A stretch of DNA of 64,000 nucleotides. Origin: a virus. Shown here one piece after another: positions 18,263-24,302 of the stretch. Location of the stretch: positions 1-64,000 of IMG/VR virus record IMGVR_UViG_3300042345_000469; one strand, written 5' to 3'. How positions within the stretch are numbered: position 1 is the first letter of the stretch; each line of letters opens with the position of its first letter. Made by a program: the position numbers and the translations under genes. The notes beneath the pieces were generated by a model that worked only from the letters and a program-made list of their open reading frames with translations, ran no database searches and was not told where the DNA came from.

Positions 18263-18772
18263 TCATTCAGAGTGTTGTTTCAAGTATAGCATAGCACCTT
18301 GTAGTAAGTCAATGCTATCATAAAAGTGTCCCAATCCACTATTACAGGTATCACAGAGCAATCCTCTAACTTTACCAGTTGTGTGATCGTGGTCAATAGA
18401 CAAAACTCCCTTTGAGGAGGATTTTTCTGGTTTACCACATATAGCACAAACACAGTTTTGTTGTATGAGAATATCATCATATTGCTCAACTGTCAATCCA
18501 TATAAAGAAATTTGTTGCTTTCTATTTCTTTTTCTTTTTTCTTCAAGACTTAATAAATTATATCTTTTTCTATTAGAAGCATTTACTTTTTCCCTATTTT
18601 TTTGAACCCATTCTTTTACATCACCATTCTCAAATCTTTTTATTGAATTCTCTTTAGTACAATTAACACATCCTGTCATAGAAGTATATCTCAAAGTATT
18701 TCTGCATTTTTTGCATGGTTTGCCTTGATAAAACTTTTCACCTTTTTCTGCAGCAATTTGTCTTGGGTGCAT
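18263..18772 (-). CDS. HNH / endonuclease VII-like nuclease
   Basis: 169 residues. The C-terminal part has CVCAICGKPE, SIDHDHTTGKVRGLLCDTCN and a helical tail, the zinc-bound beta-beta-alpha metal (HNH) nuclease fold of the recombination endonuclease VII family. A second Cys pair lies near the N-terminus (CKKC, CVNC), so two zinc sites are likely. It could be a Holliday-junction resolvase like T4 gp49, but the isolated position between gp55 and gp47, own late promoter and AT-rich hairpin favour a free-standing homing enzyme. A late promoter lies at 18797-18804. No clear ribosome site precedes the ATG. Confidence 0.82.
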   Translation of the reverse strand: MHPRQIAAEKGEKFYQGKPCKKCRNTLRYTSMTGCVNCTKENSIKRFENGDVKEWVQKNREKVNASNRKRYNLLSLEEKRKRNRKQQISLYGLTVEQYDDILIQQNCVCAICGKPEKSSSKGVLSIDHDHTTGKVRGLLCDTCNSGLGHFYDSIDLLQGAMLYLKQHSE

Positions 18773-18789
18773 TAGATTTAAACTATAAT

Positions 18790-18821
18790 ACTATAATATT
18801 TATAAAATAAAATATTATAGT
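18790..18821. repeat. Perfect 12-bp inverted repeat between gp55 and the HNH gene
   Basis: ACTATAATATTT/AAATATTATAGT (18790-18801 with 18810-18821), 8-base loop, directly abutting the gp55 stop. One arm contains part of the late promoter. All A/T apart from one pair, with no T-run after it, so it is a poor terminator and perhaps a message 3' end. Confidence 0.7.
18797..18804 (-). promoter_or_regulatory. Late promoter TATAAATA before the HNH gene
   Basis: Exact octamer inside the inverted repeat, 24 bases upstream of the ATG at 18772. Confidence 0.7.
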
Positions 18822-19319
18822 TTAATATCTCAACTTACTATGTACACCATCTTTAATTGAGTTGTAATCGGAATAGTTCCCGCCGTCAACATTGTTATCG
18901 TCAGTGAAGACTTCAGAATACCCAGAACGCTCAAGGATTTTGTTTTTGATTTCCAATTGACGCTTCTCTCTTTGGATTCTGCGAAGGAAAGCGTAATGAA
19001 TGATTTGAGTGAAGTATGCAAAAGGGTTTTGTGACTTCTCTGGATTGAAGTTATGAATGTATTGAACGCAATTCTCAATACCATCAGAAATCATATCTTC
19101 CTTAAACATATAGTTCACGAAGTTTGGTTTGAATGATAAGTGATTAGCAATCTTCAGGAAACACTCTCCAATGTAGCGGGGAATGGGGGGCTTTGGTTTT
19201 CCTTGAATCTCTGCAATTTCTTTATCTTCGCGGTACTTAATTAGAGCAGCAAGAAACTCTTTGTTGTTGACGTAATGCTCTGACCTCTTTCTTTTGGTCA
19301 TGACTGCTGTGGTTATCAT
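18822..19319 (-). CDS. 55: gp55 late-transcription sigma factor
   Basis: Phage sigma factor that directs host RNA polymerase to the NATAAATA late promoters found throughout this window. 165 residues (T4 185). Recognisable region 2-like core: FNPEKSQNPFAYFTQIIHYAFLRRI with RREKRQ-type basic follow-on, preceded by MISDGIENCVQYI. An alternative ATG eight codons in (MTKRKRSEH) is possible. No clear ribosome site precedes either. It has the best early promoter of the window (19345-19373), consistent with early synthesis before late genes. Confidence 0.95.
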   Translation of the reverse strand: MITTAVMTKRKRSEHYVNNKEFLAALIKYREDKEIAEIQGKPKPPIPRYIGECFLKIANHLSFKPNFVNYMFKEDMISDGIENCVQYIHNFNPEKSQNPFAYFTQIIHYAFLRRIQREKRQLEIKNKILERSGYSEVFTDDNNVDGGNYSDYNSIKDGVHSKLRY

Positions 19320-19424: not shown

Positions 19425-19823
19425 TTAGCTATTTTTATAAAGCTTCTCTAAAATCTCTTTAGCATCATTCACATTAGCAATATACCCCATTCTACGATTG
19501 ATCTGAGAATGTTTACTTGAATTATTCTTACTTTCTTGACGTATGTAATTTTGATACATCATTATCATTTCAACATCAGAAGATTCAGACATTGTGATGA
19601 CATCTTCTAAGTTAATAATAAACATATCATCAGTCGTAGTTTTTAACCAAGGTTCTAATTTATATCCAACAACACCTAATTTTGTTTTAATCTCACTTAC
19701 AATAATTGGATTACTAACTATCAACATAGTTCTATCTTCTTCTTCAGAGGCTGCTACTTTAGCAAAGATCTCTTCACCTGTTTTTAATTTAAGTGTGCAG
19801 TAAAAATCATCTTCAATTCCCAT
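19425..19823 (-). CDS. Sm-like small protein with C-terminal extension
   Basis: 132 residues. The first 85 match the protein at 3493-3837: CTLKLKTGEEIFAKV, then VSNPIIVSEI, then GYKLEPWL, then INLEDVITMSES and MYQNYI, in the same order, with the shared K-(S/T)-G-E, N-P or N-K-P, P-W and V-I-T positions. It adds a C-terminal helical segment with MGYIANVNDAKEILEKLYKNS. RNA-binding ring formation is the family expectation. It lies directly downstream of a GIY-YIG gene (11-base overlap), as does the other copy, and opposite the antisense promoter. It may be read by host-type transcription from uvsW downwards. Confidence 0.75.
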   Translation of the reverse strand: MGIEDDFYCTLKLKTGEEIFAKVAASEEEDRTMLIVSNPIIVSEIKTKLGVVGYKLEPWLKTTTDDMFIINLEDVITMSESSDVEMIMMYQNYIRQESKNNSSKHSQINRRMGYIANVNDAKEILEKLYKNS

Positions 19824-20313
19824 TTAGTTGTTCCTCCTTTCTTTTCTTCCACCATAACTTTGCTGCTTCACTTTTATTTTTTCTGTGTTCTTCTGATAAT
19901 GGTTTGCCTCTCCTGGATGCACCAGATTTTGGATTAGGTTTTCCTAAATGAGATTTACTCATATTTTCTCTTGATTTTTTTGAGTGAATTCTTCCTCTAT
20001 TTGCATTACCGATTTTAATTTTAGTTTCTTCACTTTGAATTTTTCCCTTCATAGCACCACCACCTATTCCACCATTAGATTTGTTGTGAAGAATTCCAGT
20101 TTCCAAATCCTTTCTCCCAAGAATTGATATCATGTAAACTTCATGTTTAAATGCATCTTCTTCTGTTAAATTTTTCTTTAAGAATATTCTTCTTTCTTTT
20201 GATGGGGGATTAAAAATCCTATTAGATTTTGAATGAATACGATTATCTTTTCCTTTACCAATATAATAAGGAGTTCCATCTTCTCTAAGGTATGCGTAAG
20301 TGTAATAGTTCAT
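19813..20313 (-). CDS. GIY-YIG homing endonuclease 3 with NUMOD3 repeats
   Basis: 166 residues. The nuclease domain has TYAYLREDGTPYYIGKGKD, an Arg next, the catalytic Glu in FKHEVYMISILG, and an Asn near ILHNKSNGG. The C-terminal half is a NUMOD3-type string: QSEETKIKI, HSKKSRENM, LSEEHRKNK, ending in a Lys/Glu-rich helix with two Trp. Start ATG overlaps the uvsW stop (ATGA), so it is coupled to uvsW. Nuclease domain is closer to GIY-YIG 2 than to 1 by eye, while the repeats resemble 1. It overlaps the downstream Sm-like gene by 11 bases. Confidence 0.88.
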   Translation of the reverse strand: MNYYTYAYLREDGTPYYIGKGKDNRIHSKSNRIFNPPSKERRIFLKKNLTEEDAFKHEVYMISILGRKDLETGILHNKSNGGIGGGAMKGKIQSEETKIKIGNANRGRIHSKKSRENMSKSHLGKPNPKSGASRRGKPLSEEHRKNKSEAAKLWWKKRKEEQLNGN

Positions 20314-21776
20314 TTTTTCTTAAGTTGTATGGTGGTTATTTCATAGTTAAAATTTTCTTCATTATAGATTTTGATTCTTTCAATAAGGTGATTTAAAGTA
20401 TAATTTTTCCTAGAATTATAACTACAATCATCAGCAATATCGTAAAGAACCGCTTTAGTTTTATTTCTTCCTTTTCTTAAAACTCTTCCGATTGATTGGA
20501 GATTTCGGATTCTTGATTTACTAGGGGAAGCAAAGATAACGTTATGTAGATTTCTAATGTTAATACCAGTAGAAAAAGTGCCGTAAGAAGCAACGATGAT
20601 TGCATTGTTTTCTCTCTCTGTAATTTCTCTGACTAATTCTCTTTCTTCGGTATCAACACCACCATGAATGAAAAATACTTTACGATCACCTCGCTTATTA
20701 GTATTTATCTTTTCGTAGAGTATTGCTCCATGTGCCTCTACTCTAGAAAATAATACCAAAGTGTTTCCTTTTAAATCCAAAGAAAGATTTGTAATAAATT
20801 TATTTCTTTGTTCGTGTGATATTAGATATTGTATTTCATCTTCATAGTTTTCAAATTTTTGCGGTGGATGTTTGAGAACAATGCACTGAATATCTAATTG
20901 CGAAAGATGTCCTTGTCTCATCAGTTCATCAGTTTTGGTTACTTTATATGACGGACCAAACAATCCTTCAAGAACCCATTTGTGGGTTTGAGTTCCATCT
21001 AGAGTTCCAGTAAATCCAAACCGATACTTTGCATGATGAAGTTTTGTCATAATTTCAATAAGAGATTTGCTCTTGAATAAATGAGCCTCATCTCCTATAA
21101 TTACGCTATAATCTTCAAAGAATGAACGCTCTAATTTATAAACAGATTGCCAAGTAGTAATCGTAACCGGATGTTCATTTGTTTTTTCTCTACCAGAATA
21201 GATTCTGTGACAATATGAATCAACATCCCAACCATAATCCTGAAAATCCTTATACATCTGCTCTACTAGCGATGTCGTCGGAACAACTAAAAGAATTTTT
21301 TGTCCTTTATCTACATAATATCTTACGATTGAATAAATCATCAGAGATTTGCCTGAGGCAGTTGGTGATATCAGCAGTTTTCGGTTGTGTCTTAAAGCAT
21401 CATATACTCCCTCAATTTGATATTGACGTGGAGAATGAGAACATATAGATGCCATATAATCCTTGACACCTTCATATGAGATATTTTCATTTACCTCAAA
21501 AGGTTGTCCATAGAATTTATTTTCTTTGAACTGATATTGATAGTTGTGTATAGAAAGTTTGTCAATTACCTTATCAAGCAATCCGGCATAAATTTCTCCG
21601 GTGTGAGTGCTTAGTAGTCTGATTTTTCCGTCCCAGTGTCGGCTTCTATACTGAGACATGAATTTTGCAGACTCAACTTCAAAAGTAAAATATGGTTGAA
21701 GTTCATGTAGAATATGTGGTTCGCATTGAAGTTTTAGGAAAACTTCATTTTTCTTTTCAATAATTACGTCACTCAT
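20310..21776 (-). CDS. uvsW: UvsW recombination/branch-migration helicase
   Basis: Superfamily 2 helicase that unwinds R-loops and migrates branched DNA, switching T4 from origin- to recombination-dependent replication. 488 residues (T4 503). Motif I SPTASGKS near 135, motif II GDEAH near 228, motif III GFTGTLD near 252, and motif VI SIGRVLRKGR near 435; the N-terminal DNA-binding part has SQYRSRHWDGKIRLL. Start ATG at 21776. The ATG lies in one arm of a 10-bp inverted repeat with a late promoter octamer at its other edge, suggesting late-only translation. Confidence 0.97.
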   Translation of the reverse strand: MSDVIIEKKNEVFLKLQCEPHILHELQPYFTFEVESAKFMSQYRSRHWDGKIRLLSTHTGEIYAGLLDKVIDKLSIHNYQYQFKENKFYGQPFEVNENISYEGVKDYMASICSHSPRQYQIEGVYDALRHNRKLLISPTASGKSLMIYSIVRYYVDKGQKILLVVPTTSLVEQMYKDFQDYGWDVDSYCHRIYSGREKTNEHPVTITTWQSVYKLERSFFEDYSVIIGDEAHLFKSKSLIEIMTKLHHAKYRFGFTGTLDGTQTHKWVLEGLFGPSYKVTKTDELMRQGHLSQLDIQCIVLKHPPQKFENYEDEIQYLISHEQRNKFITNLSLDLKGNTLVLFSRVEAHGAILYEKINTNKRGDRKVFFIHGGVDTEERELVREITERENNAIIVASYGTFSTGINIRNLHNVIFASPSKSRIRNLQSIGRVLRKGRNKTKAVLYDIADDCSYNSRKNYTLNHLIERIKIYNEENFNYEITTIQLKKK

Positions 21777-21797
21777 AGCATTATGATTGCTATGAGT
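21771..21797 (-). promoter_or_regulatory. Hairpin enclosing the uvsW start codon
   Basis: Perfect 10-bp inverted repeat ACTCATAGCA/TGCTATGAGT (21771-21780 with 21788-21797), 7-base loop. The uvsW ATG is in the downstream arm, so read-through RNA from uvsY would hide it. Confidence 0.7.
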
Positions 21798-21804
21798 ATT
21801 TATT
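21797..21804 (-). promoter_or_regulatory. Late promoter AATAAATA before uvsW
   Basis: Octamer overlapping the uvsY stop. A transcript starting about ten bases further on would begin within the hairpin loop and lack its upstream arm, leaving the uvsW start free. Confidence 0.65.
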
Positions 21805-22241
21805 TACCCTAGTCCAGACTGAAAACGAACAAACTCAATTGAATTTTTAATTTGATATGTCCTATTCTGAATCATTTTGAGAATGCTTTCAATATAAACC
21901 AACATAGTATCATAATAATCTATCTTTAGACACACTGTAGATAATTTCTCATCCGCATCAAGATATTTTTGCATCGTATCTTTATCACGAATTTTCTTTG
22001 GAAAGGGATTATCTACATATATTTCTGGATCTGCTTTACCCGAATAATATTCATATCTTTCGTGTCTGATATTTCTTTTTTGTTGTTCCGCCTTTTTTCT
22101 TAAGAGAAATATAGTATTATAAAGTTCAAAATATTTTGCATGAAGAATGGGAATATTTAAAGATTCTGTATGAAGATTATCAATGTCCATCTTAGAATCT
22201 TGTTCCCACATTTTTTGAATGGTATCAAGATCAAAACTCAT
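21804..22241 (-). CDS. uvsY: UvsY recombination mediator
   Basis: Mediator that loads UvsX on single-stranded DNA covered by gp32. 145 residues (T4 137), highly helical. Conserved features compared with T4: LHAKYFELYNTIFLLRKKAE early, RHERYEYYSGKADPE (T4 has LDYYSGRGD), KYLDADEKL (T4 VLSADKDVL) and a C-terminal helical pair with IKNSIEFVRF. Overlaps the upstream tail-tube-like gene by four bases (ATGA). Its stop is part of the uvsW late promoter. Confidence 0.92.
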   Translation of the reverse strand: MSFDLDTIQKMWEQDSKMDIDNLHTESLNIPILHAKYFELYNTIFLLRKKAEQQKRNIRHERYEYYSGKADPEIYVDNPFPKKIRDKDTMQKYLDADEKLSTVCLKIDYYDTMLVYIESILKMIQNRTYQIKNSIEFVRFQSGLG

Positions 22242-22798
22242 AAAGGATCACCATTTAAATCAGTTATATTGAACATAGTATACTTGAAAGATACCTCTGC
22301 TGTAAAGTATTGAATATCAGTGTCTGTAGCATCAAATTGTAACGTTGTCAAATTGTACGGAAATAAATCTTTAAATTTAATTTTAAAGTTTGTATTTTGG
22401 CTGCTTGTAAGAACATTTAATGTTCCATCAGAATACAAATTTAACTGTCCTTTTGTCGGTTGATCTAAATTTGGATTTGATGCTTGTAAATTGTAAATTT
22501 CTTCTAATGATTCTGGAAATCCAAGACCGCGAATCCAATTGGAAATTTCATTGTAGTTTTCTAAATCTTCATCAACTAAAAATCGAAGAGTAAAATCTTC
22601 GAAATCTATTTTTTCCCCAGGTTGAGGAATATCTCTTAGATATGTTGGTTGATTTGCAATACCTAAAGTTAATCCTGGTATATTTGCCGAATTACTAAAA
22701 AAAGCAGTTTTTGGTGCCCTATTTAAGATAAATTTAAACCCAACTGGAGATAAAAAGTTTCTATTTTTTATCTGGTTTTTAAAAATGTTCGTTGCCAT
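22238..22798 (-). CDS. Tail-tube-like virion protein, 186 aa
   Basis: 186 residues. It shares the layout of gp19-type tail tube proteins: an N-terminal strand with GFKFILNRAP, ANIPGLTLG, then a strand-loop-strand with EKIDFEDFTLRFLVDEDLENYNEI, a helix SNWIRGLGFP, and a C-terminal sheet with FPYNLTTLQFDATDTDI (compare FPTNVSPIDLSYDSSD in gp19 of this window). A tail-tube initiator, cap or terminator role (gp48/54 or gp3 type) is likely but cannot be decided. A late promoter variant and gp23's terminator lie directly upstream. It is coupled to uvsY, mixing a structural gene with recombination genes. Confidence 0.75.
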   Translation of the reverse strand: MATNIFKNQIKNRNFLSPVGFKFILNRAPKTAFFSNSANIPGLTLGIANQPTYLRDIPQPGEKIDFEDFTLRFLVDEDLENYNEISNWIRGLGFPESLEEIYNLQASNPNLDQPTKGQLNLYSDGTLNVLTSSQNTNFKIKFKDLFPYNLTTLQFDATDTDIQYFTAEVSFKYTMFNITDLNGDPL

Positions 22799-22865: not shown

Positions 22866-24302
22866 TCACATGAGATTTTTCACAGCAACACGTCTGTAAT
22901 AACGGTTCTGGTTGGTCTGAAGACGGCCAAGACCCTGATTGGTTCCTTCTGCAAATGGGTTAGCAACAAGACCATAACGGGTCTTAAAGCCAATCTTAGG
23001 CTGGAAGGAGTTCTCACCAACGGCACGAACCATTTGGAGAGGAACATAAGGACAATAGAAGAGTCCAGCGTCATAAGGTGAAGAACCCTTATAACCAACA
23101 ACATAGTACTGGTTGCCTGGAGTTCCGTTTGCGGAAGTTAGGTTAGCAGAATATGGGTCGATGTAGACGCGGAATTTGCCCATCAGAGTACCAGCAAAAG
23201 TATTGCCAGTATCATCAACGTTCAGGTTAGCGTTGAGTGCTGGGGTGTAATCGAGAACACCAGCCATGGTCAGTGCTGAAGCAACGTCAGCAGAGCACAT
23301 GATGATGTTGCCCTTTCCACGACGAGTTCTCTGAGCGATTGCGTTAGCATCACGCTCAATCTGGAACAGAAGACCCTTGAACTTCTCAACAGACCAACGA
23401 CCATTGGAGTCGATGTCTAGGTCGAAAATACCAGGAGTTGCAACGTTTTGTACAGCACCTTGCTCAGCAACCTTATAGATGGTTCTGATAACTTCGCGGT
23501 TGATCTCGGCAAGAATCTCAGTTGAGAGAATGTTTGCGAGTTCCGCTTCAGCATTCAGACCATGGATTGCCTTAAGGTCTTGAGCAAGCTCAAGTGAGTA
23601 CTCAGCCTTCAGTGCGCGTGACTTTGCAGTAACAGTAACTTTCTCGATCGAGAAAGCCATCTGGTTGAATGCATCATTCGCAGAACCGTCAAGGTTCTCT
23701 GCATCACCGGTGACCATTCCTTGGCCTACATTATATCCAAGTGATGAACCAGTTCCAACTGGGTTTAATACGCTTGGATTGCTACCCGATTGAGTGGTAG
23801 TACCCATACCAACGTTGGCATCGGTAAATCCAGCAGATTCGTCAAATCCATAATCCTGACCAGAGAATGCACTATCAGCTTCATTATAGAAGGCTTCACT
23901 TCTTGCGCCTTCTTTGTAGTACTGAGAACGCATTGCAAAGATGAGTCCAGTAGGACCACTCATTGGTTGAACGCCAGCGAGGTCATAAGCGACCAGGTTA
24001 GGCATTGAACGTCTGATCAGTGAGATCAGAACGGGATCGAAACCAGCGTTAGGACCAGCAGCAAGACCAGCACCACCACCGAAACCACCACCAGCACCAG
24101 CAGCGTTAGCTGACATGGTTGGTGATTCCATTAAGTTGGATAGATTTCCAGCTTGGAATGACTGCTCTTCTCTTAAAAATCTTTCTTGGTTTTCTAGCAG
24201 GACAGCGGTTACAGCCTTACGATGCGAATCTTTGATTGGATCAAGACCCTCATAGTTGAGGAGAGGTGCCCACTTTTCCTGCAGATGCTCGGAATGGAAC
24301 AT
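22866..24302 (-). CDS. 23: gp23 major capsid protein
   Basis: Precursor of the major head protein, HK97-fold. 478 residues (T4 521). The N-terminal delta region of about 59 residues is helical; LME at 57-59 followed by Ser60 fits the gp21 cleavage rule (L/I-x-E then a small residue), so mature protein likely starts at S60. A Gly/Ala-rich linker follows (GGFGGGAGLAAG), then ISLIRRSMPNLVAYDLAGVQPM, a hallmark of gp23, and the C-terminal domain with GFKTRYGLVANP. Ribosome site AAAGG is present before the ATG at 24302. No late octamer lies directly upstream; it is probably read from the gp22 promoter. Confidence 0.98.
   Translation of the reverse strand: MFHSEHLQEKWAPLLNYEGLDPIKDSHRKAVTAVLLENQERFLREEQSFQAGNLSNLMESPTMSANAAGAGGGFGGGAGLAAGPNAGFDPVLISLIRRSMPNLVAYDLAGVQPMSGPTGLIFAMRSQYYKEGARSEAFYNEADSAFSGQDYGFDESAGFTDANVGMGTTTQSGSNPSVLNPVGTGSSLGYNVGQGMVTGDAENLDGSANDAFNQMAFSIEKVTVTAKSRALKAEYSLELAQDLKAIHGLNAEAELANILSTEILAEINREVIRTIYKVAEQGAVQNVATPGIFDLDIDSNGRWSVEKFKGLLFQIERDANAIAQRTRRGKGNIIMCSADVASALTMAGVLDYTPALNANLNVDDTGNTFAGTLMGKFRVYIDPYSANLTSANGTPGNQYYVVGYKGSSPYDAGLFYCPYVPLQMVRAVGENSFQPKIGFKTRYGLVANPFAEGTNQGLGRLQTNQNRYYRRVAVKNLM

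Follow-up and report, generated by a model that had tools for sequence, protein, structure and literature searches.

A hairpin over the uvsW start codon beside a late promoter in marine T4-like cyanophages: a probable late switch for UvsW

In the T4 genes e, soc and 49, read-through RNA forms a hairpin over the translation start, while the late RNA, which lacks the 5′ strand of the hairpin, is translated (as described for these leaders in PMC3014915). For I-TevI, it is reported that early and middle RNA conceals the start region in a hairpin, which the late RNA is unable to form; similar arrangements are given for I-TevII, I-TevIII, segB and Aeh1 mobE (PMC2988022). In T4 genes 25 and 38, which have split ribosome-binding sites, a hairpin between the Shine-Dalgarno sequence and the AUG aids initiation (PMC3014915). 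A late promoter drives the expression of T4 uvsW (Derr and Kreuzer 1990, as cited in PMC3016281). Since T4 UvsW unwinds R-loops at replication origins and thus helps end origin-dependent replication (PMC3016281), the timing of UvsW shapes the replication programme. Among the open-licence literature matches listed, a scope that leaves most subscription papers outside, no description was found of a hairpin at uvsW or of such a switch in cyanophages. This agrees with the sequence-only reading of the present locus, which knew of no such description for this gene in this phage group.

The window, which is the whole 64,000-nucleotide stretch of DNA analysed here, is part of a 75,995-base phage record and is kin to the T4-like marine cyanophages (e.g. 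Synechococcus phage S-SM2). The features that concern this study are as follows.

22866-24302, minus strand: major capsid gene.
22238..22798, minus strand: tail-tube-like gene, which holds a host-type promoter (PHROG tail tube; Pfam gp19 match below the cut-off).
22277..22306 (22306-22277), minus strand: candidate host-type promoter TTTACA-N18-TATACT (scan; synonymous-site conservation).
21804..22241, minus strand: uvsY, 145 aa (ORF; Pfam UvsY).
21797..21804, minus strand: late-promoter box AATAAATA, T4 type with A at -13 (sequence; NATAAATA per PMC2984593).
21788..21797 (21797-21788), minus strand: hairpin 5′ arm ACTCATAGCA, which holds the predicted late +1 at 21791 (sequence and folding).
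21781..21787 (21787-21781), minus strand: hairpin loop ATCATAA (sequence and folding).
21771..21780 (21780-21771), minus strand: hairpin 3′ arm TGCTATGAGT, which contains the uvsW ATG at 21776-21774 (sequence and folding).
20310..21776, minus strand: uvsW, 488-aa helicase (Pfam UvsW_N, ResIII and Helicase_C; PHROG DNA helicase).
19813-20313, minus strand: NUMOD3/homing-endonuclease-like ORF directly downstream of uvsW.
19425-19823, minus strand: Sm-like protein.
18822..19319, minus strand: late sigma factor (gp55-like), the expected reader of the late box (PHROG late sigma transcription factor).

The gap between uvsY and uvsW is 27 bases on the minus strand and contains the late box, except its first base, followed by the beginning of the hairpin. 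The box begins on the final base of the uvsY stop codon (21806-21804), and the overlap of octamer and stop proposed from the sequence was found to be this single shared base, 21804. A perfect 10-bp hairpin with a 7-nt loop lies at 21771-21797 on the minus strand, its first base being the final base of the late box. Thus, the inverted repeat with the uvsW ATG in one arm was recovered at exactly the positions first read (21771-21780 with 21788-21797). A U-G pair (21798/21770) lengthens the stem. The RNA folds at -13.9 kcal/mol (z -4.8; equally good in none of 200 shuffles) with the AUG within the stem. The leader has no clear Shine-Dalgarno sequence, and it is the AUG that the stem covers. Rfam covariance models gave no match to 21600-22400 up to an E of 1.

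Related uvsW junctions were taken from 160 loci found in two IMG/VR scans and from named phages. Three more scans enlarged the set to 203 distinct junctions that have a late box and 29 that do not; the latter set mixes phages whose uvsW overlaps its neighbour with phages whose box is variant or missing, and is a rough control only. Junctions identical across the folded stretch were counted once. In unannotated loci the start codons were picked by script, and loci without a readable N-terminus were left out (2 in one set and 3 in the wider set).

Where would the late RNA start? The NATAAATA box is the cyanophage late promoter as reported in PMC2984593. In T4 the first base of the late box is numbered -13, and a span of -13 to -6 follows from the wording 'A(-13) in place of T' (PMC2988020). 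Since this places +1 six bases past the box, the late start is predicted at 21791. Of the 203 distinct box-bearing uvsW junctions, 195 have A at the predicted +1 and 200 have a purine there, while A is found at the same position in 100 of 195 other late sites. Thus, the late RNA should start at the seventh base of the 5′ arm and not in the loop. The sequence-only reading had placed the start in the loop with the upstream arm absent; by the T4 numbering (PMC2988020) the loop start gives way to one inside the 5′ arm, and the loss of most of the arm stands as a prediction. Six of its ten bases would be removed, and the four that remain still allow the start codon to open in folding. As a separate observation, a TTGACA ends 14 nt before the end of the late box, at a fixed distance, in 36 uvsW junctions (e.g. 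L072, L077 and L054), while a TTGACA within 45 nt upstream was seen at only 3 of 195 other late boxes. In relatives with a GTG start, for example L045:1460-1502 and L092:1382-1424, the late leader counted from the predicted +1 runs AGATGnATGGAT...GTGA; this may be a micro-ORF of five codons, with its TGA overlapping the GTG of uvsW.

All folding was computed at 37 C. Opening the uvsW start of the window costs 10.2 kcal/mol in read-through RNA versus 3.9 in late RNA, whose best fold is only -3.3 kcal/mol. In a separate calculation in which the RNA start was moved, the cost drops from 11.3 to 5.0 at the fourth base past the box and is 3.4-4.3 from the fifth to the eighth. Over 202 uvsW junctions the median cost is 7.3 kcal/mol for read-through and 4.0 for late RNA, with corresponding values of 3.8 and 3.1 over 195 other late sites. 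Thus, the contrast foreseen from the sequence, a start buried in read-through RNA and open in late RNA, was reproduced by computation.

These results make it likely that a cis-acting RNA switch delays UvsW until late RNA is made. Transcripts that enter uvsW from upstream, on the uvsY operon RNA, would carry both arms; this RNA would probably start at the host-type promoter that is conserved ahead of uvsY. With both arms present, the hairpin would form and bury the start codon, and uvsW would stay untranslated early. I infer from the folding that this fold would block the ribosome in the cell. Later, the phage late sigma factor would direct initiation at AATAAATA, the RNA should start at 21791, and with six of the ten 5′-arm bases lost the start would be open, so that UvsW would be made only late. 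Since many relatives keep or rebuild the arrangement, uvsW is probably silent until late infection.

The candidate source of read-through RNA, TTTACA-N18-TATACT, sits inside the tail gene, 36-66 bases upstream of uvsY. Across 189 distinct tail-gene ends, codons of the -35 element are nearly fixed at synonymous sites (TTT 99%, ACA 88%, GCA 91%), and so are those of the -10 element (TTC 97%, AAG 96%, TAT 98%, ACT 97%). The spacer codons stand at 60-65%, and 35 other conserved codons average 69%, with 4 of the 35 at 90% or more. This pattern looks like selection on a promoter within coding sequence. Among loci with a readable uvsY, the exact motif is found in 111 of 135 with a late box and 9 of 15 without one. 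The uvsY promoter and uvsW lie on the same strand, and the terminator scan found no coding-strand terminator. Early read-through RNA could be supplied from this promoter. According to PMC2984593, MotA, the middle-promoter activator of T4, is missing from cyanophages, in which the genes that T4 expresses as middle genes are thought to carry both early and late promoters; this fits a promoter before uvsY. The conserved promoter inside the tail gene is a finding separate from the hairpin and bears on the timing of uvsY.

Could the hairpin serve translational coupling instead? Since the uvsY stop is only 7-8 bases before the hairpin, a ribosome finishing uvsY might melt it. The start of uvsW would then be hidden unless such a ribosome arrives; read-through RNA would yield amounts of UvsW proportional to UvsY, and further UvsW would come from the late promoter. 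This is the strongest rival, since of 120 hairpin junctions whose upstream ORF could be read, 83 have its stop within the late box. However, the stop is also within the box in 23 of 38 junctions without a hairpin, 10 of the 120 hairpin junctions have a stop more than 20 nt upstream of the box end, and coupling alone has no need for the 5′ arm to coincide with the segment just ahead of the predicted RNA start (hereafter the pre-start segment). Coupling as the whole explanation is therefore unlikely, though the late switch and coupling could operate together in this phage.

The late switch gains from the position of the hairpin. A search of the window for perfect inverted repeats with arms of at least 10 and loops of 3-10 gave 12 seed hits, spread over 8 places, and the same search in 60 Markov-simulated windows gave a mean of 1.33 hits (sd 1.45). 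Since such repeats are not rare in the window, it is the position and not the repeat itself that counts. The uvsW leader has the best fold among the 24 NATAAATA sites of the window. When 200 pairs of late box and ORF from five phage records were ranked on the energy gained from the pre-start segment, the median was -0.1, and the uvsW of the window ranked second (-10.0), that of G002 third (-7.0) and that of P-SSM2 fifth (-5.9); the first-ranked site resembles an intrinsic terminator with a run of T. In an ensemble fold to +30, 115 of 203 uvsW junctions pair with their own leader at p<=0.05, taking the pre-start segments of other late promoters as the reference, versus 10 of 195 other late sites, for each of which 60 of the 195 pool segments were drawn. 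The latter is the chance level, and pairing as a general feature of late leaders was rejected, with a slight excess at other late sites when their pre-start segments were permuted (-0.86 versus -0.61; 0 of 300 as strong). It is improbable that the hairpin is instead a terminator of antisense RNA on the plus strand, with the complement of the late box as its U tract. The scan does list the site as terminator-like on that strand (1 found, 0.2 expected), but the tail is broken (ATTTATTTAC), only 4 of the 10 pairs are G-C, and any hairpin adjoining this box would appear so, while other late boxes have none.

Two further sites were noticed. In the window, a perfect inverted repeat at 18791-18820 (minus strand) extends across another late box (TATAAATA at 18804) immediately ahead of the ORF 18263-18772; its layout differs from that of uvsW in that the late box is in the loop and the 3′ arm. 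At about 11001 (minus strand) of L203 (G001), TATAAATA is followed by AGATTAGA...TCTAATCT and the AATG of an ORF of 100 aa; this may be a second such switch.

Is the complementarity kept in relatives? The close group and the P-SSM2 group were set by N-terminal sequence or best-matching query, not by formal taxonomy. The sequence-only reading had named loss of arm complementarity in close relatives as grounds against the switch, and such a loss was not found: in the close group, 36 of 38 distinct junctions pair the pre-start segment with the leader at p<0.05 against 195 other late promoters, the exceptions being L023 and L062. It had also proposed an alignment to see whether the arms co-vary, and they do so at two pairs. 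In alignment A2, which holds the 32 of the 38 junctions that have a 20-nt spacing and is gap-free, 98.1% of cells are standard pairs, while sliding the pairing partner leaves 17.5-47.2% paired. Changes on both sides occur at the two pairs (7 cells), with a covariation score above all 500 shuffles, and these pairs show 7 and 5 state changes on a tree from the rest of the gene. One of them joins a non-coding pre-start base with codon 2; in L009 and L116 this codon has gone from Ser to Asn and its partner base from C to T. Another alignment, A3, has one wrong row (L079) and served for reading the leader sequence only, not for counts.

The repeat could also be thought of as a DNA palindrome, an operator bound by a regulator at the late promoter, and its centre, just downstream of the predicted +1, is at a usual operator place. 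However, the close group has 15 cells with G-U wobbles (6-30: 4, 9-27: 1, 12-24: 9, 13-23: 1), which break a DNA palindrome yet preserve RNA pairing, and RNA is favoured for this reason. Since arm sequences differ between groups, no single protein site is kept, and the operator is very improbable.

In distant groups the arms have different sequences and pairing is still present. Examples are ATTCAC/GTGAAT around a GTG start, ACCCAT/ATGGGT just before a GTG, and AATCCTA/TAGGATT in P-SSM2. Among 110 junctions with pre-start pairing of at least 4 kcal/mol, 29 different pre-start 6-mers were found. Permuting the pre-start segments of the 203 uvsW junctions weakened the mean pairing from -4.45 to -2.37, and from -4.01 to -1.76 when each of 33 clusters (80% identity) was represented by a single junction; in both cases none of 300 permutations was as strong, and one of 300 was when the set was thinned to 8 clusters. 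A second aligned group of 17 sequences is 98.0% paired, with covariation only moderately above shuffles (21 of 500 as high). S-SM2 showed no pairing when folded to +12 and a longer-range pairing when folded to +30 (dE -5.0, p 0.02). That the complementarity has no RNA function and arises incidentally, from a conserved start region lying opposite conserved promoter sequence, is hardly credible: the 3′ arm is partly coding (ATGAGT) with little freedom to vary, and shared ancestry accounts for much of the within-group constancy, but ACTCAT is not late-promoter consensus (1 of 195 other late pre-start 6-mers), and pairing persists through different arms and thinning to the 33 clusters, at 115 of 203 uvsW junctions against 10 of 195. 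Extra ORFs between uvsY and uvsW were seen in L022, L037, L049, L074, L077, L078, L079 and L150; in these the late box, and often a hairpin too, stays with uvsW.

Many relatives lack the hairpin. Nearly no pre-start pairing (dE above -1) was found in 36 of the 203 junctions, and in the P-SSM2 group the hairpin is present in only 39 of 73, with 14 state changes on the tree. The uvsW gene overlaps uvsY in P-TIM68 and S-SCSM1, and another gene in S-RIM8; neither a late box nor a comparable hairpin was found at these three junctions. This looks like a different solution, in which translation is coupled to the neighbour. ACG-2014f has a hairpin with no standard late box within reach and was placed in the set without a box. 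In T4 and PhiZZ30, where the upstream gene is co-directional (segE or a homing endonuclease), no hairpin is predicted at the uvsW start. In six T4-type phages whose upstream gene is on the opposite strand, a late box is present and the start opens about equally in both RNAs; in one of them, GuL6, a pairing of -3.1 (p 0.05) leaves the start untouched. In two Ackermannviridae with a co-directional upstream gene (loci L455 and L459), a pre-start CTCC pairs with the Shine-Dalgarno region of uvsW (SenM-2 dE -6.4, p 0.02; Magnus dE -4.4). This may be an independent version; it is a lead only, because just two genera and one box variant (GCTAAATA) are concerned.

A broader account seems to me evenly balanced between right and wrong. 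The marine T4-like cyanophages, lacking MotA, may keep uvsW in the uvsY unit and delay its protein by a tiny switch of 5-6 bases between box and RNA start. Selection would act on complementarity only, so that the arms are rebuilt repeatedly, and the CTCC pairing in two genera of Ackermannviridae hints at repeated origin where uvsW follows a co-directional gene. As a candidate start-codon switch legible from sequence in many marine phages, the arrangement makes early versus late control of uvsW directly testable. Late genes situated on earlier transcripts are the places to look for further switches.

How does the locus compare with the known systems? The window uvsW has a start codon that is paired in upstream-initiated RNA (computed fold), a late promoter whose RNA would lack the 5′ strand (predicted +1 at 21791), and a complementarity that is kept in related phages, though not in every one. 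By these features, the predicted uvsW switch would work like those of T4 e, soc, 49 and I-TevI, and the likeness to e, soc and I-TevI drawn in the sequence-only reading is borne out as far as sequence can test it against the descriptions in PMC3014915 and PMC2988022. As in the T4 gene e leader, and in soc and 49, the late promoter lies in the region of the 5′ strand (PMC3014915). In contrast, those are other genes of enterobacterial phages, while here the gene is a replication/recombination helicase of a cyanophage, and the upstream arm from box to RNA start is only about six bases. The I-TevI group consists of homing endonucleases with the Shine-Dalgarno sequence in the stem, whereas the window uvsW has its AUG in the stem and no clear Shine-Dalgarno sequence. 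T4 25 and 38 also have a hairpin at the translation start in T4-type phages, but a split ribosome-binding site was rejected here, since the AUG is inside the stem rather than free. T4 uvsW is the same gene with a late promoter, as the sequence-only reading had stated, but in T4 segE precedes it, the closest late box is some 100 bases away from the ATG, and folding predicts no hairpin at the start; for want of a local hairpin it was rejected as a direct parallel. In the window, a homing-endonuclease-like ORF is downstream of uvsW (19813-20313), while in T4 segE is just upstream. Thus, the mechanism is known already; what appears to be new is its occurrence at this gene and in this phage group, together with the repeated rebuilding of the arms.
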